Of a stretch of DNA of 51,641 bases, positions 5,501-46,583 are shown piece by piece. Made by a program: the position numbers and the translations under genes. The stretch's first letter is position 1; the number at the start of each line of letters is the position of its first letter. The notes under the pieces were generated by a model, which ran no database searches, was not told the DNA's origin, and worked only from the letters and a program-made list of their open reading frames with translations. The DNA comes from Terriglobales bacterium (GTDB lineage Bacteria > Acidobacteriota > Terriglobia > Terriglobales > Acidobacteriaceae): NCBI GenBank assembly GCA_030038475.1, contig JASHOU010000060.1, positions 1 to 51,641 on the forward strand, read 5' to 3'.

Positions 5501-7312
5501 CTATTTACGTCCGTACTCGAAATCCACCAGGCCGTCGCGATAATCGATCTTCACGTCGAGCAGCCGAAGCATATCAAAACCGAGAAAACCGGAAATCTCG
5601 GTTCCCATCTCGCCGCTTATGCCGGAGAGATCGAAGGTCACAATGTTCTGCTGCTCGCGCACGCGCGCAAAACGCAGCGTGGCATTGGAACGATAGACTT
5701 CATTCACGGTGCCGCTCAATCCGCGCACGCGCTGGAAGTAGTCCGGACTCACCTTTCCCATCTGGCTCCCAGCGCGTAACGACAACATATTGTCGAACGC
5801 GCCCGTGTCGAGCCCAAATAGCATGGGTTTCGAGTCGTTCACATTAGTCGGCACCAGAATCAGGTGGCCAAAACGGAAGACTTTCGTCCAGTTGGCCATC
5901 TCCCGGGCAACGTAACGATCTTTGGGCGGTGATGCGGGCTGAGGGAACGTCTTTGAATCCGGCGGACCGGAACTTTGCGCTGAAGAATAGCCCCCAGCAG
6001 ATTTTTGCTCGCCGGAATCAGCGTTTGCCGCGGTCTCTCTTTGGTCATCAGTGTTGGCTTGCTCGTCGCCGTTGCTGTTGAGTGACTTCGGTGCGACGGT
6101 ATCCTCTGGGCGCTTTGGCAGCGGAGAGAGTTTGAGCCGCATTTCCGGAATGTCGATGTCAACCAGATAAGTTGCGAAAACATCCGCGCCAAGCAATCCG
6201 GTCTCGTTGAGAACAGCGGCCTGGTTGCTGACGACTACGAGGCAGTCCTGAAATTCCAGGTCTCCGATTCGGATGTGATCCGCGACTGCGGTATAGCCGG
6301 TGCGCGACCCCCGATCGCCGATGCCGCCGTAATGCACGGTGGAGATGCGGGTTAATCCGGCGTTTTCCGCGACTTTACGTCCGATGATGATTCCGCTCGC
6401 GCCGGTGTCGAGCTGGAATTCAGCATTCTGATCATTGATGGTCGCCGAAAGACTCACGCCCCGAACCAGCCCCGAGGCCCACCGGCGTCGCGCCTCCGCG
6501 TACATCTTGCTTAGCTTGATCTCGGTCTGCTCCACCTTGCTGACTTGTTGGCAGTCGTGTGGAGGTTTATCTGCTGTTTTCCGGAGGAACTCCAAACGCT
6601 CGGTCAACTGCTCTGTCTCATCTGCATCGGCGGCATGTGGGCCGGCAAGATAGGCCTCAAGTGACGCCAACTTTCCTTTGCGTGGAAGGAGACGGAGCCA
6701 CGCCATTTGTACGTCGATATCGTTCGGGGCAATGTCGTGCGCAATCTTTAACTCGCCGTAGGCGACGCCGTACATTGAGTAAGCCCGGTAGATACGCGCG
6801 AGGCCGAGATAAGAATGCACCTCTTTTGGATCGTGCTTTTTCGCCGCGAGATACGATAACTCGGCATCCGACATTGCGCCGAGGCGGAACTGCACATCAC
6901 CCTTTGCCGCGAGCAATGCGGCGGAATTTGGCTGCTCGGCCAAGGCGGCGTTCGCCGCGTCGAACGCCTCATCAATTTTCTGCTGACGCAGCATCGACCG
7001 CACGAGTCCAACCTGCGCTGGCACCAGCTTGGTATCGTTTTTCACGAGGGCCCGATAACTCGCTTCGGCTGCGGCGAACTTGCCGGAGCGATAGAGTCGG
7101 TCGGCGGCGGCGATTTCGGAATCGCTCGTTGGACTCTTCGCCGCGTCGCCGGGAACTTGGGCAAAAAGCATAGATTGCCATAAAAGAATTAGAAGAACAG
7201 CGATGGTGGATAGTTGTGAGCAGGAATGTAAACGAAAATTGCGCCAATCCGACTGCTGGCAGGTTATTTCGGTGCGTTCCCGAACCACGCGCAGCATTGC
7301 GCCAATCGCCAT
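5501..7312 (-). CDS. TPR protein with two retropepsin-like aspartyl protease domains
   Basis: From the ATG at 7312 the product is 603 residues. A single hydrophobic signal or anchor segment (TIAVLLILLWQSMLFAQ, about 36-52) is followed by TPR-like helical repeats at about 65-230. Then come two aspartyl-protease-like domains, each with its own active-site motif: DTGAS at 302-306 (followed by GIIIG) and DTGAF at 502-506. A Gln/Ser/Pro-rich linker joins them at about 405-470. Retropepsins act as dimers, so two copies in one chain could form an intramolecular pair, as in pepsin. The frame is open further upstream but would overlap the divergent M23 gene. ATG 7297 is an alternative start, and neither has a clear ribosome-binding site. 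Confidence 0.75.
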   Translation of the reverse strand: MAIGAMLRVVRERTEITCQQSDWRNFRLHSCSQLSTIAVLLILLWQSMLFAQVPGDAAKSPTSDSEIAAADRLYRSGKFAAAEASYRALVKNDTKLVPAQVGLVRSMLRQQKIDEAFDAANAALAEQPNSAALLAAKGDVQFRLGAMSDAELSYLAAKKHDPKEVHSYLGLARIYRAYSMYGVAYGELKIAHDIAPNDIDVQMAWLRLLPRKGKLASLEAYLAGPHAADADETEQLTERLEFLRKTADKPPHDCQQVSKVEQTEIKLSKMYAEARRRWASGLVRGVSLSATINDQNAEFQLDTGASGIIIGRKVAENAGLTRISTVHYGGIGDRGSRTGYTAVADHIRIGDLEFQDCLVVVSNQAAVLNETGLLGADVFATYLVDIDIPEMRLKLSPLPKRPEDTVAPKSLNSNGDEQANTDDQRETAANADSGEQKSAGGYSSAQSSGPPDSKTFPQPASPPKDRYVAREMANWTKVFRFGHLILVPTNVNDSKPMLFGLDTGAFDNMLSLRAGSQMGKVSPDYFQRVRGLSGTVNEVYRSNATLRFARVREQQNIVTFDLSGISGEMGTEISGFLGFDMLRLLDVKIDYRDGLVDFEYGRK

Positions 7313-7439
7313 TTTGCGGATCGTCACTTTGCGGATTCTAGCGTAGTTTCTGGTGAATCGTGAGCGCGATCGCCCATCTTCCGTCGCCATCCCAGATCGC
7401 GCATCCCAGTGAGTAACAGTAAAGTTCGGTTCATCAGTT

Positions 7440-8643: not shown

Positions 8644-11600
8644 CATCAGCACCTCTTCCGCGTCCCAAACTCCGTCGCGGAATGCGACATTTCTTCCCGA
8701 GATCGCAGGGATTCGCTCGCCGGGAACAATAACTCCAACCAGGTTCAACGGATCGGCCGCCGCGATGACGATGCGCTCGCCGCCGGTCTGCGGGAGCTTG
8801 CGATGAGCCCGCAAGGACTCGACAGCAACTGGCAGCGCGAACTGTTCTCCGATGAACCCATCGACAAATCGACCGCCGCGCACCTCGCCACGATCTTCAA
8901 GGCGGCGATAGCCGATCTGCAATTCGCGCCATCGCGGCAGATTGGTTTCGCGCGCCAGCAGGTCGCGGAAAACGACGCCATAGCGCCGCAATAACATCCA
9001 GCAGCACGATTCGACGCTGCGGTCGCGGTCGGCGCCTTCGGTATGCAACAAAGACCATCGTCCTGGCGCATGACGTGGACGACGCACTTTAGCAATACTC
9101 TTTCCGAATCCCGCGCCCGATGCGGTTTTCGGCGTCACCAATGTTCGCAGGTTCTCGAATCCGTCCGCGGTCACCAATCCCGCCGCAACCAATTCCCAAA
9201 GGCCGGTTTCGACCTCTGCTTTGAGCCGGCCGGTGGCGCGGACCATGTCGGCAAAAAACAACGCCCCGCGCTGCTTCAAGAGTTCGAGCAAGGCCTGCGC
9301 CACCGGACTCAGGAACGAACTCGACGAATCTTCCGCCGCGGGATGATGCGCTCGCATCCAGTCGGCATCCTCGCGCACAAAAAAAGCAATCGGCACAACG
9401 CGGGTGGGAATCACGCGCCGCCGGCTCTCGTTATTTTCGATGGCTTCGAGCGTTGCCGGATGCGGAGACAACCGTCCCCACCCTACCGCGCCTGACAGGC
9501 AAAGCTGATCGAGATGTGCCGGATCGTAATCCGAAATTCGCCGCGCCAGCACAAACCGCTCCCAGGCGCTCGCGGGAATCTCGAATCCTTGCAGTTGGCG
9601 GATTACTTCGAGCGTGCCATGTTCGCCGCGGACCTGCGTCCCGGGCGCGACGTGCTGCCACTTCAAAAGCCAACTCATGAACTGCGAAGCTGTGACCGGT
9701 GCAATTTGTTTGCGCAGCGTTGCCACGGTCAGGCGATGAATGCGCGCCAGCAGTCGCCGTTCGCACCACTCGATTTCCGGTTTGCTTGCCGCCGCCGCCG
9801 TTACCTCAGCGGCTAAAGCCGTCGAGGGCCGGTCGTCGATCGCAGCGCTGAAGCGCTGCGCCGCCTCAAGACCCGATGATTCAGGTGGCCGGAATTTACC
9901 GCGCAAAATCGCGCCGCTAGCTTCCATGCGAAGCAAGGCCTTCTCGATCTCAGTCGCTTGCAGGCCCAACAACTCGCCAATCTCTGTGGCGGTCGTGGGT
10001 CCAAGATGCGCCATCCATCCCTGCACCGCGGTCAGCACAGCATCGTCAAAACGCACCGTCGAGGTACGGGTTGTGTCGGCGCCGTTGTTGTGCGCAGCTT
10101 TCGGGTCAGAGCTGTCCGCGGATTCGGGGTGCAGCGCCTGTAACCATTCTGCACGCTCGGCAGCGATCCAATACCGTTTACCAGCGACTTCCGACTCAAA
10201 AGCACGATTCTGTTCTTGCAGAATGTTGAAGAAAGCAATCCAGTTTGAAGTGCTTCTTGGGTTTGCTTCCCGAGAACTGAGAACCGCGAACTGAGAACTG
10301 TTTTCCGGCACCATTACCAATGCGTGCAGCACATCGTGCAGTTCGTCGGCGTCGCGCACGTCTGGCCACGCCTCCTGCTGCACCTGCGCGATGGCCGCAG
10401 GATCGAGCGCGCCGACTTCTTCCAAGACCGACTCCGGCAGCACGCGCCGCATCTCGACCGCGCGGGCGCGGCGCTCTTCGAGCGGAGCATCGTCGAGATA
10501 TGCGTACGGATTCGCATTAAGGATCTCGTGCGAGAATTGCGACGGCACCGGCGTGTCGACTGCGAGGCAGCGAATTCGTCCCTGCTCAATACCGCGAAGC
10601 ACTTCGGTAAGCCCCTCGATATCGAGCGCCTCGGTGAGCACATCCTTCATCACTTCCTTCACCAGGGGGTGGTCGGGAATCTGAATGTCTCCGGCAATGT
10701 TTTCCTGGCAAGCAGCCACATCGGGAAAAACCGAGGCGAGCAAATCATCGGAGCGAATGCGCTGAATCTGCGGCGGTACCTTCTTGCCGCCCTGGAAACG
10801 CAGCAGCGCCAACGCACGGGTCGCATCCCATCGCCAGCGAGTGCCAAAGATCGGAGATGCGAGGGCCGCTTGCTCGAGGATCGGCGGCATCGTCTCCGAA
10901 TACAGAAAGTTGAAAACGTCGGCCAGGGGAAAGCTGTGTTGCTCGGCGAGCGCAATGTTCAGGCCGTTGTCGGTGGCGGCAGCCTGCAATTCGAAATTGA
11001 ATCCGCGGCAAAAGCACTTGCGCAACGCCAATCCCCAGGCCTTGTTGATGCGCCCGCCAAAAGGCGCGTGGATGATAAGTTGCATCCCGCCACCTTCGTC
11101 GAAAAAGCGCTCAGCGATGATTGTCGCCTGCGTGGGCACATCGCCGAGCACGGCGCGGCCTTCGAGAATGTACTGAATCAATTGCTCGGCGCCGGCCACA
11201 TCGAGCCCGCACTCTTTGTCGAGCCAACTCACAACTTCGGCCACAATCGGAAGATTGCGCCATCCCTCGACCGGAACCAGGCCGGGCAAGCGGTCGCTGA
11301 TTTCTTTGCGCAATTCGCCGAGTTGTTGCGAGAGCTCGGAGGTGCGCGCCGGAGCCTCTCCGCGCCAGAACGGGACCGTCGGCGGCGTGCCATGAGCATC
11401 TTCGACCAGCACGCGCGACGTTTTCGACTCGACGCGGCGAATGCGCCACGAAGTGTTGCCGAGCAGCATGATGTCGCCCGCCATGCTTTCGACGGCGAAA
11501 TCTTCATCGACGGTGCCGACGCTTGCGCCGTCGGGTTCTGCGACCACAGAAAACAAAGCATTATCGGGAATCGCCCCGCCGCTCGTAATCGCGGCCAAAC

Positions 11601-29512: not shown

Positions 29513-29518
29513 GAGAGC

Positions 29519-29541
29519 AGGTCTCAGGTGTCAGGTCTCAC
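29519..29541. repeat. short heptad repeat after glgC
   Basis: AGGTCTC, AGGTGTC, AGGTCTC follow each other directly downstream of the glgC stop codon. It is a three-copy relative of the other 7-bp arrays in this window. Confidence 0.5.
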
Positions 29542-35735: not shown

Positions 35736-36016
35736 AGAGTTCCTCCCAATCAATCGAATCGGCTGCAAGGAATTTAGTAGAACCAGTAATGTCTTAGCGC
35801 ACGCACAGATGGGCTGTAACCTGGAAACACAGAATTCTACAGCAAGCACGCAATTTTGCAAGTTTTGTAAGAAAGTATTTAACGTCCCAATGGCGTGGAC
35901 TGTGCTTTCTGGGCGGAGTTGCGAGGATGAAATCTCAAATTGATATTGTATTCTGCGGCGAGTTGCGGTGCGGCGCGCTTCCCGGAATAATGCTGATTGG
36001 GCTTTCGCACAGGAAT

Positions 36017-37408
36017 ATGACGCAGGAACGCGTACTGATAGTAGAAGACGAGGAGAACGAACGCACCGGGCTGGCGGAACTGGTTTCGGGATGGGGCTAT
36101 CGCACCGATACGGCGGCAGACGGCGTGGAAGCTCTGGAAAAAATTCCTGTCTTCGCCCCGTCGATCGTCATCACGGACGTGAAGATGCCGCGCATGAGCG
36201 GCATGGAATTGGTGGAAAAGCTTGCCGAAATGGCGCAGTCGATCGCCGTAATCATGGTGACCGCCCAGAAGGCGACAGATACGGCATTTCACGCCGGCCG
36301 TCTGGGCGTGCAGGACTACATCGAAAAGCCCATCGACTTCCGGCGTTTACGCTCCATCCTGACCAACATCGGCGAGATCGTGAATGCGCGCAACGAGAAC
36401 GAAACGCTGCGCAGGCGCCTGCGCGATAAGGGAGCGCTAGGCCGGTTGGCGGGCGAGTCTACGCGTATGCAGGAGATTTTCCGCCTGATCGAACAGGTGG
36501 CTCCGAGCACGGCTTCGGTGTTGATTACGGGCGAGAGCGGGACGGGCAAGGAATTAGTGGCGCGTACCATCCATGATCTAAGTCCGCGCCGCAGCAAGCC
36601 GTTCGTTCCCATCAATTGCGCTGCCATTCCTGAGACGCTGATCGAAAGCGAGATCTTCGGCCACGAAAAAGGGGCGTTCACGGGCGCGCTCGAACGGCGC
36701 ACGGGCTGCTTCGAACTGGCCGAGGGGGGAACGTTGCTGCTCGACGAGATTGGAGAGATGCCCGTGGCTACGCAGGCCAAGCTGCTGCGCGTGCTCGAAG
36801 ACCACAAATTGCGCCGTCTGGGAAGCAAGGTCGAAACGTCGGTGGATGTGCGCGTGCTGGCTTCGACCAATAAAATTCCCGATGAGGCTGTAGCCAATGG
36901 CGAACTGCGCCAGGACCTTTATTACCGGCTCAACGTCTTCAATATTCACATGCCGGCGCTGCGTGAGCATAAAGAAGATATGCGGGAGTTAGTCAAGAGC
37001 CTGCTCGCCGATATGAACCTGAAGCACGATCGCAAGGTCGCCGACGTGAGCGAGGCGGTGCTCAATATGTTCCAGACTTACTCGTGGCCGGGCAACGTGC
37101 GCGAGTTGCGCAATACGCTGGAGCGCGCCGTCATTGTCTGCGAAGGCGGGCTGATCGAGAGCAAACACCTGCCTCCGGGATTTGGCCAGAGCGTGCGTCC
37201 GGTGGTCAACGATCCCGATGCGGTGCATTTGGGCGTGGGCACCACGGTCGGCGAAGCCGAGAAGCTGCTCATCCTGAAAACTCTGCAGGCAACGAATAAC
37301 AATAAGACGCGGGCCGCAGAGATACTCGGCATCAGCTTAAAGACGCTGCACAACAAGCTGAAGGAGTATGGGCGGCCGCAGGAAGCGGCGATTGTTGAAG
37401 AAGAGTGA
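36017..37408 (+). CDS. sigma-54-dependent response regulator (NtrC family)
   Basis: The 463-residue activator has an intact receiver (D11, D54, T82, K104), an AAA+ domain with Walker A GESGTGKE (172-179), GAFTGA (219-224, the sigma-54 contact loop) and DEIGE (243-247), and a C-terminal Fis-type helix-turn-helix (RAAEILGISLKTLHNKL). It turns on promoters that use sigma-54 after phosphorylation. The start at 36017 gives the typical N-terminus; a longer frame exists upstream. The kinase gene follows with an 84-base gap that holds a heptad-repeat hairpin, so the pair is probably one operon and two-component system. Confidence 0.9.
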   Translation: MTQERVLIVEDEENERTGLAELVSGWGYRTDTAADGVEALEKIPVFAPSIVITDVKMPRMSGMELVEKLAEMAQSIAVIMVTAQKATDTAFHAGRLGVQDYIEKPIDFRRLRSILTNIGEIVNARNENETLRRRLRDKGALGRLAGESTRMQEIFRLIEQVAPSTASVLITGESGTGKELVARTIHDLSPRRSKPFVPINCAAIPETLIESEIFGHEKGAFTGALERRTGCFELAEGGTLLLDEIGEMPVATQAKLLRVLEDHKLRRLGSKVETSVDVRVLASTNKIPDEAVANGELRQDLYYRLNVFNIHMPALREHKEDMRELVKSLLADMNLKHDRKVADVSEAVLNMFQTYSWPGNVRELRNTLERAVIVCEGGLIESKHLPPGFGQSVRPVVNDPDAVHLGVGTTVGEAEKLLILKTLQATNNNKTRAAEILGISLKTLHNKLKEYGRPQEAAIVEEE

Positions 37409-37413
37409 GAAAA

Positions 37414-37486
37414 AGTTCTCAGTTCCCAGTTCTCAGAAACATCCTGTGACTCCGACTGAGAACTGAGAACCGAGAACTGAGAACTG
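37414..37486. repeat. inverted heptad arrays between response regulator and kinase
   Basis: The left arm (37414-37436) is built of GTTCTCA, GTTCCCA, GTTCTCA. The right arm (37456-37486) is built of GAACTGA, GAACTGA, GAACCGA, GAACTGA in the opposite sense. The two arms can pair over about 20 bases with a 19-base loop, forming a stable hairpin right between the two genes and 6 bases before the kinase GTG start, so it may also affect kinase translation. Confidence 0.7.
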
Positions 37487-37492
37487 CCTTTA

Positions 37493-39502
37493 GTGAGTCG
37501 CAAATTCATCATCGTGCTCGCCCTGACCACGCTGTTCACGGCGCTGGTGGTGGGATTTTCCTGGATCTATCTTTCGCAACTGCTGCGCCAGCGGCTGCTC
37601 TGGGCCGATGAAACCGCTTCGCAACTCACCAATGAACTGGAGTATGCGGCCTCGAAAGCGGTGCCCGACCTCACGAGCACGCGCGTGGCTACGGAAAATC
37701 CTAAGGCGATGCGCGCGGCCATCAGCAGCTATCTACAGACCGACGCCAATCTCAACGACATGCTGGAGTCCGTGGTGGATTACTCGCGCATCATCTACGA
37801 CGCCGCCATCATCGATCCGAATGGAGTCGCGATTCTCGATACCGATCCCGCGCTGAACGGCAAGCCGGTTCCCGAACGCCCGCGATTGGCTGAGTTGCGG
37901 GATGCCGGTTTTCGCCGCCAGTTGCGCATGCTCTACAGCGCGAGCACGGTTTATGACGTGAGCATCGGGCTCGAGCTCGATGGCCAGGCCTTTGGCAGCG
38001 TGCGCGTGGGAGTTTCAACTGTGTTTCTGCGCAACGAACTGACGCCGAAACTGCAGCAGGCGGGGTTCTTTTCGGTGCTGGCCATCTTTTGCTCGCTGGT
38101 GCTCTCGGCGGTGGTTTCAAACGTCGCGCTCGGCCCGCTGAAGGCCATCAGCCGTAATCTGGATAGCGCAAGCGCGGGCGCGGTTTTGCCCGACGAAGAG
38201 ACCAACGCCGACGACGAGGTTGGGCTGGTATCGTTGAAGATCGCTCACCTCGGCCAGCAGATTCGCGATACCAACCAGATTTTCTCCGCCCTCAAGGATA
38301 ACGTCGAGCAGGTCATGTCGAAGTTGCAGGATGGGCTTATGCTCTTCACTCGCGATTCGCGCGTGGTGCTGGTAAGCGCCTCGGCAGAGAAATTTCTAGG
38401 CCGCCCCCGCCGGGAAATTCTGGGACGCACGGCGGAGGAGATTTTTTCCGACGGAACGGTTCTGGGCGCGGTGGTGCTACCCGCATTTCAAAAACAACGG
38501 CCGCTGGCACAGTACGAATTCGATGCCGCCGACGGTCGGCGGGTACAGGTCTCGCTCGACTTTATTCAGGAGAAAGGAACTCAAATTGGCGCGCTGCTCA
38601 CGATGCGTGACGCCGAATCTGTACGGCGCATCGAAGATGAGATCGAGATTTCGCGGCGTCTCTCGGCCAGCGGACGGCTGACGCGCGGCGTGGCGCACGA
38701 GGTGAAAAATCCCATCAACGCCATCGTGTTGCACTTGCAGTTGCTGCAAAACAAACTGCAGCAGAACGATCCCGACACACGCCGTCACATGGATGTCATC
38801 GGCAGCGAAATCCAGCGCCTCGACCGCGTGGTGCAGATTCTGGTCGATTTCACCCGTCCGCGCGATTTGCGTCTGGAAGAGATGGATTTGCGCAAGATTC
38901 TGGAGAGCGTATCGCTGCTGGCTGCGCCCGATGCCGCGCGTCATGGCGTGCGGATCGCGCTCGAACTTCCGGGCGCTCCCCGCATTTGCGGAAAAATAAG
39001 TAACAAGCACCTCGGCAACCAACCACTTGCCGGTGAATCCGTATCCGACGAAGCATTATCAGATGAATCGGTGTCCGACGAGTCACTGTCCGACGACTCA
39101 CTGGCCGGCGATGATGCGCTGATGGTGCGGGTCGATCCCGATCTGATGAAGCAGGCTATTTTGAATCTGGTGCTGAACGGCGTGCAAGCCATGAACGCGG
39201 GAGGAACGCTTATGCTCACGGCACGGCGCGATGACGATATGATTCTCGCCGAGGTGCGCGACCAGGGCTGCGGCATTCCGCCCGACGCGCAGGAGAAGAT
39301 TTTTGAGCTTTACTTCACCACCAAAGGCGACAAAGGCGGAAGCGGAATCGGCCTGGCGCAAACCTATCAGATCATGCAGTGGCACTACGGCTCGGTGGAG
39401 TTCGACTCGATCGTCGGAGCTGGCACCACGTTTCGCCTGCTCCTGCCCGCGGCGTCAGGATTAAAAACAGAAAATCAAAAGAACGAACAGATGAGGGCCT
39501 GA
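37493..39502 (+). CDS. sensor histidine kinase with PAS domain and acidic repeat insertion
   Basis: The GTG-started 669-residue kinase has two membrane segments (about 5-27 and 188-212) around a periplasmic sensor domain, a HAMP-like region (about 213-265), a PAS domain (about 270-375), DHp with H402 (GVAHEVKNPINA), and an HATPase domain with N558/N562 (NLVLNG), DQGCGIP and GGSGIGLA. Residues 501-542 are an insertion in the ATPase domain, between strand residues ending RICG and VRVDPDLMKQ. It is a run of Ser/Asp/Glu pentapeptides (see 38993-39118). It likely phosphorylates the NtrC-type regulator encoded just upstream. Confidence 0.9.
   Translation: MSRKFIIVLALTTLFTALVVGFSWIYLSQLLRQRLLWADETASQLTNELEYAASKAVPDLTSTRVATENPKAMRAAISSYLQTDANLNDMLESVVDYSRIIYDAAIIDPNGVAILDTDPALNGKPVPERPRLAELRDAGFRRQLRMLYSASTVYDVSIGLELDGQAFGSVRVGVSTVFLRNELTPKLQQAGFFSVLAIFCSLVLSAVVSNVALGPLKAISRNLDSASAGAVLPDEETNADDEVGLVSLKIAHLGQQIRDTNQIFSALKDNVEQVMSKLQDGLMLFTRDSRVVLVSASAEKFLGRPRREILGRTAEEIFSDGTVLGAVVLPAFQKQRPLAQYEFDAADGRRVQVSLDFIQEKGTQIGALLTMRDAESVRRIEDEIEISRRLSASGRLTRGVAHEVKNPINAIVLHLQLLQNKLQQNDPDTRRHMDVIGSEIQRLDRVVQILVDFTRPRDLRLEEMDLRKILESVSLLAAPDAARHGVRIALELPGAPRICGKISNKHLGNQPLAGESVSDEALSDESVSDESLSDDSLAGDDALMVRVDPDLMKQAILNLVLNGVQAMNAGGTLMLTARRDDDMILAEVRDQGCGIPPDAQEKIFELYFTTKGDKGGSGIGLAQTYQIMQWHYGSVEFDSIVGAGTTFRLLLPAASGLKTENQKNEQMRA
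38993..39118 (+). repeat. 15-bp tandem repeat within the histidine kinase gene
   Basis: Residues 518-537 (bases 39044-39103) are four pentapeptide units, SDEAL, SDESV, SDESL, SDDSL, with a 15-base period. The whole stretch of residues 501-542 is absent from typical HATPase domains, in which ~RICG would be followed directly by the N-box region. It is very acidic (Asp/Glu/Ser) and in frame. Confidence 0.7.
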
Positions 39503-41901: not shown

Positions 41902-41968
41902 CACACGGATCAGTGATCGATGGCGAATCCGACAAAACCCATTGCAGCAGCTAATGCGGAGGCTCCCG

Positions 41969-42298
41969 ATGATCGTCGAAACGCGGATCGTTGAAATGCG
42001 CACCTATAAAACCAAGCCCGGCAAACGCGCCGAGTTCGTTCAGATATTCCACAGCAAGGTTGTTCCAGCCCATGCGGAGATCGGAATGAAACTTCTGGGG
42101 CCGTTTCTCTCGGTCGAAGATCCCGACACATTCTTTTTCATGCGCGGTTTTCCCGACCTCCCTTCGCGTGAGCCGATGAAAGCGAAATTTTACGAAGGGG
42201 AATTATGGAAGCGCGAACTGGAAAACATCCTCATGCCAATGCTGGAAAAATATGAGGTGGTGCTGGTAGAAGACTGCGAAAATCTGATTCACTGGTAG
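41969..42298 (+). CDS. NIPSNAP family protein
   Basis: The 109-residue protein starts MIVETRIVEMRTYKTKPGKR and has the dimeric alpha/beta barrel (ferredoxin-like) pattern of NIPSNAP/NipSnap-domain proteins. GGAGG stands 6 bases before the ATG at 41969. It follows the DUF1579 gene by 67 bases on the same strand. The biochemical role of the family in bacteria is unsettled. Confidence 0.8.
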   Translation: MIVETRIVEMRTYKTKPGKRAEFVQIFHSKVVPAHAEIGMKLLGPFLSVEDPDTFFFMRGFPDLPSREPMKAKFYEGELWKRELENILMPMLEKYEVVLVEDCENLIHW

Positions 42299-46523: not shown

Positions 46524-46583
46524 GATCTGACACCTAACGCCTAACAAGACTCTGCTTTTCCTGAGACCTGAGACCTGACACTT
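46524..46583. repeat. heptad repeats after the second phosphoesterase
   Basis: TGACACC, TAACGCC, TAACAAG, and after a spacer CTGAGACC, TGAGACC, TGACACT. They lie directly downstream of the stop codon. Two more copies with some changes (CGACACC, TGAGGTC) are seen near 46762-46776. Confidence 0.5.

Follow-up and report, generated by a model that had tools for sequence, protein, structure and literature searches.

An in-frame 15-bp repeat in the ATPase-domain loop of a Terriglobales sensor kinase looks like a mark of its genome's mutation habit

Histidine kinases share the GHKL ATPase fold with MutL. Among the described tandem repeats inside genes, that of mutL (PMC2955026, going by the available part of the report) is like the one described here in being a short tandem repeat within an ATPase gene of this fold family. 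A change in copy number is reported to toggle mutL between functional and non-functional states, whereas the present kinase has gained a longer loop and keeps its motifs intact. The intragenic repeats of E. coli tolA (PMC3477136, in the portion accessible to us) also vary in number in frame inside one protein, but they vary between strains with a measured effect, while the variation found here is between species only. The amino-acid tandem repeats of Borgs, as set out in the text at hand (PMC9879509), resemble those reported here in being genome-specific, in frame inside open reading frames, commonly disordered (here probably so, by prediction) and almost always different in unit sequence from site to site. 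Borg repeats are described as nearly perfect and belong to archaeal extrachromosomal elements, whereas those reported here are diverged, mostly few-copy, found in a bacterial draft genome and of a preferred 15-bp period; the kinase array in particular is not a near-perfect nucleotide repeat. Judged by title and abstract opening, none of the matches listed in literature searches describes 15-bp loop growth in Acidobacteria or the kinase insertion.

The window (the whole stretch of DNA that was analysed, 51,641 nucleotides) is part of a draft genome of 4.46 Mb, labelled G000; other G numbers denote sampled genomes and L numbers loci. The named records in which close kinase relatives occur come from metagenome-assembled Acidobacteriaceae, Terriglobia and the like, and many are tagged bog, fen or palsa. 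The kinase gene (Table 1) lies directly downstream of a gene for an NtrC-type sigma-54 response regulator, which is the probable partner of the kinase because the two genes adjoin. The kinase can be classified as a sensor histidine kinase, as both of its defining domains score over the curated Pfam cut-offs (HisKA 43.4 bits, cut-off 26.9; HATPase_c 75.3 bits, cut-off 26.4) and the catalytic motifs are kept. No variation is seen across 27 aligned rows in the residues that we take to represent the H, N, G1, F and G2 motifs, namely H37-E38-V39-K40-N41-P42, N193, N197, D225, G227, G229, F239, G251, G253 and G255. The best solved-structure match is ZraS (PDB 9jfj), by sequence profile and also by the fold of the DHp-ATPase part. 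ZraS is alike in both respects but, in the profile alignment, has no insertion at the loop that carries the repeat.

Table 1. Positions of the features in the window
Feature	Position	Strand	Basis
NtrC-type sigma-54 response regulator	35927..37408	+	Pfam PF00072, PF00158, PF02954
Sensor histidine kinase, 669 aa, PAS + HisKA + HATPase_c	37493..39502	+	Pfam PF08448/PF00512/PF02518
Whole insertion, 46 residues (494-539), in the hairpin joining strands 1 and 2 of the ATPase domain	38972..39109	+	Alignments; absent from unexpanded relatives
Seven recognisable 15-bp units, residues 507-541	39011..39115	+	Unit comparison; TRF 39072-39111
IVETR-IVEMR, the window's second 15-bp tandem pair, close to the start of ORF 41942-42298	41971..42000	+	TRF
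IRKVT-IRKMA, a further 15-bp tandem pair, in a long open frame; may precede the true start	7305..7336	-	Source genome alone
Other heptamer array	10270-10300
Other heptamer array	29518-29540
Other heptamer array	46560-46578

The in-frame repeat of 15 bp (five residues) is present where the preliminary description had placed it. TRF reports a period of 15 with 2.7 copies and 88% matches. Self-identity, computed over the array with 60 bases before it and 15 after it, reaches 0.45 at lag 15 and 0.44 at lag 30, whereas the remaining lags between 5 and 29 give 0.16-0.31. Seven units are recognisable where four had been counted, and read in order LGNQP, LAGES, VSDEA, LSDES, VSDES, LSDDS and LAGDD. 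Adjacent units are alike at 56 of 90 bases (62%), and any pair of units shares 5 to 13 of 15; when the 35 codons of the array were shuffled 20,000 times, 56 was never reached (shuffle mean 28, maximum 45). The motif RICG (residue 497), previously taken for the end of a strand preceding the repeat, falls inside the insertion; ahead of it, alignment with relatives stops at LELP (490-493). The array is preceded by three blocks of five residues (LPGAP, RICGK and ISNKH), which are in register with it and have no recognisable likeness to the units; they may be decayed units.

The history of the loop was read from an alignment of 33 kinases (that of the window, 21 others of its genus and 11 from outside the genus), in which the segment from LP to VRV was measured. 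Of the 24 genomes of the genus, 23 (counting G000) have a match to the kinase at an E-value of 1e-100; G008 gave no match at that threshold. The segment is 10 residues long in all 11 outside kinases, so that the stretch is indeed an insertion relative to homologues. Within the genus it has 10 residues in eight rows, 12 in six, 17 in three, 21 in one, 22 in one, 32 in two and 56 in the window kinase. The locus is therefore a variable-number tandem repeat in the sense that copy number differs between related genomes at one place (seven length states among 22 genus kinases). Fourteen of the 22 are unexpanded (10 or 12 residues), and the loop of G015, a further genus member beyond the aligned rows, is also short. 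The remaining eight have five different lengths, with one genome for each species, and the fixed common length that would have marked the stretch as an old part of the domain is not seen. Relative to the 12-residue state, six of the eight expansions are exact multiples of five and the other two are one residue short.

At the codon level, the intermediates derive from a single unit, CTG-CCC-AAC-SAN-GAT, which encodes the native LPNxD turn, and form a growth series from LPNED through LPNRD-LPNQD to LPHHE-LPSHD-LTSDD-LTDQD-LPDQN. At least 10 changes of loop length are required on a tree built without the loop, on which long and short loops are interleaved; of the sisters L041 and L043, which are 96.5% identical, one has a loop of 17 residues and the other of 10. 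The eight expanded rows do not form one clade (AU p 8.4e-5, for a group defined after the data had been seen). The other indel blocks in the genus alignment span one or two columns, except near the C-terminal end. The intermediates show that the loop has grown by repeated in-frame 15-bp tandem duplication and deletion starting from the native LPNxD turn. An assembly or binning artefact might be suspected in a draft genome of 216 contigs with 3.47% estimated contamination, but is extremely unlikely given that the units are diverged and that loops of intermediate length are present in a number of assemblies with separate names.

A group of closely related species whose loop lengthens by almost equal increments from a known starting point, with intermediates present, is of wider use. 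Such a stepwise series can be used to ask how disordered segments arise, which loops tolerate them and what sets the duplication step.

AlphaFold models were built from 27 sequences and have a confident ATPase core. In the model of the window kinase, the insert sits between strand 121-126 and strand 179-182, with no secondary structure and a mean pLDDT of 42-48 in four blocks of ten. Of the 46 insertion residues, 33 are in segments with pLDDT under 50, compared with 86-94 in the flanking blocks of 10. In the model of a five-unit relative, most of the loop likewise has low pLDDT, with one short helical turn at the loop end. The expanded loops are probably disordered, a prediction that stays one because both models are weak overall (mean pLDDT 65.5 for the window kinase and 66.1 for the relative).

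A disordered acidic segment could have a function of its own, for example in docking or autoinhibition, and be kept by selection. The net charge of the loop is -8 in both the window kinase and L037, and the acidic disordered C-terminal tail of WalK matters for regulator binding according to the available part of a report (PMC9087282). Differences between adjacent units fall on codon positions 1, 2 and 3 in the numbers 12, 5 and 17 in the window kinase, 8, 3 and 5 in the L034 array and 7, 2 and 6 in the L037 array. The second position is thus the least changed in all three; the excess at the third position in the window kinase is a weak hint of selection on the peptide that is not repeated in L034 or L037. 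However, the net charge is only -1 in the 25-residue loop of L034, and the unexpanded state of 14 of the 22 genus kinases, including the sister of an expanded one, argues further against a conserved role. We consider selection for an acidic segment unlikely.

The array is also distinct from the proteins named for pentapeptide repeats. PF00805, which we take to be the family of these proteins, with the consensus A(D/N)LXX and a small residue two places before the Leu, is not among the five Pfam matches at an E-value of 0.001. In the seven units, the residue two places ahead of the L or V is in turn K, Q, E, E, E, E and D, where that fold would have a small residue.

The preliminary description had further proposed that copy number could vary in a phase-like manner, that is, that the gene is a contingency locus in which fast copy-number change within a population tunes kinase output. 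The seven-residue difference between the closely similar sisters L041 and L043 fits this proposal, as do the effects of repeat number reported for tolA (PMC3477136) and mutL (PMC2955026). Phase variation is nevertheless unsupported, because a 15-bp unit inside an open reading frame never shifts the frame, because adjacent units are 62% alike and because neither the composition of the loop nor its acidity is conserved. A phase-variable simple-sequence locus would have near-identical units whose length shifts the reading frame or a promoter; with units as diverged as these, fast slippage would not be expected. A contingency locus is thus very unlikely, and the growth of loops in unrelated proteins (below) tells against it as well.

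Repeats of the same period were counted elsewhere in G000 and in related genomes, with 93-400 kb sampled for each genome; the G000 stretches were picked around histidine-kinase paralogues and are not random. With the window included, G000 has 23 near-perfect repeats at lag 15 in 387 kb (mean of 0.4 in 5 codon shuffles), against 3 in 400 kb of G015 (a basal member of the genus), 2 in an equal length of G040, from the same family, and none in 50 kb of E. coli. The main counts were made with N masked and the window excluded. The species with expanded loops have 20 in 335 kb (G000), 6 in 101 kb (G014), 5 in 97 kb (G016) and 2 in 97 kb (G020). Close relatives with a short loop have 0 in 106 kb (G007), 3 in 120 kb (G009) and 1 in 105 kb (G003), and basal genus members have 2 in 115 kb (G002), 0 in 93 kb (G001) and the 3 of G015. 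The totals are 33 in 630 kb for the expanded set, 5 in 608 kb for the basal set (p 4.8e-6) and 4 in 330 kb for the close unexpanded set (p 0.0016). The counts of G020 among the expanded species and of G009 among those with short loops tell against the contrast.

The difference at lag 15 persists at looser thresholds, at 14 of 15 and when 23 matches are required in 30-base windows. Under the two strictest thresholds, 4 and 5 repeats against 0 in the basal set fall short of significance (p 0.13 and 0.063). Lag 12 is raised relative to the basal set (25 against 5, p 3.4e-4) and not clearly so relative to the close unexpanded set (p 0.19); lag 18 has a weak excess (12 against 3 in the basal set, p 0.036). 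In the same samples, lags 7, 9, 14 and 21 do not differ between expanded and comparison genomes.

Several other proteins of G000 have lengthened loops or linkers. In a second kinase, HK2, the loop before the G1 motif is 76 residues long, whereas the 17 relatives that could be read have 51-68. In the regulator NtrC2, the linker that leads into the DNA-binding domain has 108, against 57-79 in the 17 relatives readable there. Prephenate dehydratase has 56 at the corresponding site, against 46 in 14 of 20 relatives; two relatives are longer than G000 (65 and 66), and the G014 row holds masked letters. The names prephenate dehydratase and NtrC-type (NtrC2) are our presumptive assignments from reading the sequences. 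For HK2 and NtrC2, 19 relatives each were compared, but the loop could not be read in G023 and G015 (HK2) or in G013 and G004 (NtrC2). The HK2 loci L220-L222, which are paralogues or second pieces, were left out, as were the NtrC2 loci L264-L267. Each of the three growth sites in G000 holds a 15-bp tandem pair. That of HK2 (L093, 16977-17008) is at the end of the lengthened ATPase-domain loop, where the extra stretch has its only visible repetition, a small part of its length. The small protein with the IVETR-IVEMR pair close to its start (Table 1) had matches in 3 of 12 genomes asked. At the pair site, which could be read in L198 and L199 (though not in L197), these relatives have MIIEMPTY and MIVEMRTY; they lack the pair and are five residues shorter.

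In genes shared with relatives, G000 has 20 insertions of at least four residues and the relatives have 3, the commonest size being five residues (6 of 20). This tally covers 38 pairs and 13,676 aligned columns from seven of nine relatives asked, excludes the kinase and its added loci, and may count one insertion against several relatives. Own and relatives' insertions number 10 and 7 for G014, 4 and 3 for G016 and 1 and 0 for G020, so that the excess is marked in G000 only. Because unrelated proteins of G000 also have grown loops, a switch specific to the kinase was set aside as the main reading.

Extra in-frame segments in several unrelated proteins of one genome could also come from a short mobile element that inserted into the loop. 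Rickettsia palindromic elements, for example, enter coding genes. Such an origin is extremely unlikely, since inspection by eye shows no sequence shared by the 23 lag-15 repeats of G000, and since the native turn is the source of the kinase units in relatives.

Mismatch repair probably misses slippage errors as long as 15 bases. G000 has a single open frame that scores over the cut-off for MutS, and MutL has three matches over the cut-off, split over two contigs (G000:C208 and G000:C103). As both proteins are present, loss of mismatch repair is not a simple cause of the duplications. MutS is longer in G000 (2,817 nt for model positions 2-840) than in G010 and G001 (2,649); it has 2,763 nt in G018, and the two pieces of G007 span 2,826. 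For MutL, G000 and five further members of the genus have a model match that is interrupted at positions 223-226, its pieces lying 156-174 nt apart, so MutL may carry a variable insert too.

The proposed model for growth of the kinase loop is as follows. The samples show a tendency, strong in the source species and shared by the sampled relatives with expanded loops, for tandem duplications of 12-15 bp to arise and persist across the genome. These duplications would be generated by strand slippage or unequal exchange. In-frame copies survive where length is tolerated, in loops and linkers, as seen in the few proteins described above, with disorder as a predicted property. The kinase most likely stays active, and the length of its loop would be nearly neutral or have a small tuning effect. 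We regard it as probable that a lineage-specific tendency to short duplication fills tolerant loops and that the kinase insertion is one instance of it, nearly neutral for the kinase. The repeat thus looks like the mark of a mutation habit of the genome more than a switch built into the kinase, and such repeats need not each be a regulatory switch of their own gene. A broader proposal, which we put forward tentatively, is that this lineage of the genus may have a genome-wide process of tandem duplication, with a preferred 15-bp (and 12-bp) period, that inflates loops and linkers of the proteome by up to about 50 residues with no loss of mismatch-repair genes.

Repeats of a different kind are found beside the kinase gene. 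The spacer between the regulator and kinase genes (37414-37487) contains two arrays of 7-bp units, (AGTTCTC)n and (GAGAACT)n, inverted relative to each other, and folds to -31.2 kcal/mol (z -4.55); this spacer has no Rfam match. The nearest report found, going by the part available, concerns TAACTGA direct repeats in Beggiatoaceae (PMC4679880). Paired heptamer-like arrays are clear by eye in 12 of 21 orthologous spacers, and in some of these a different heptamer occupies both arms: AGTACCC in L043, AGGTCTT/AGGTCTC in L036 and L038, and TCAGCCA in L034. Among 12 aligned spacers of 22, selected because their arrays are visible, pairing is preserved by changes on both sides in 12 of 20 predicted pairs. 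Heptamer arrays occur at 3.0-16.4 per 100 kb in ten sampled genomes of the genus (samples L076-L115 and L137-L196), whereas 400 kb of G040 has a single array and 50 kb of E. coli has none. An inverted partner lies within 160 bp for 49 of the 107 arrays from the ten genomes of the genus, and the commonest heptamer is AACTGAG.
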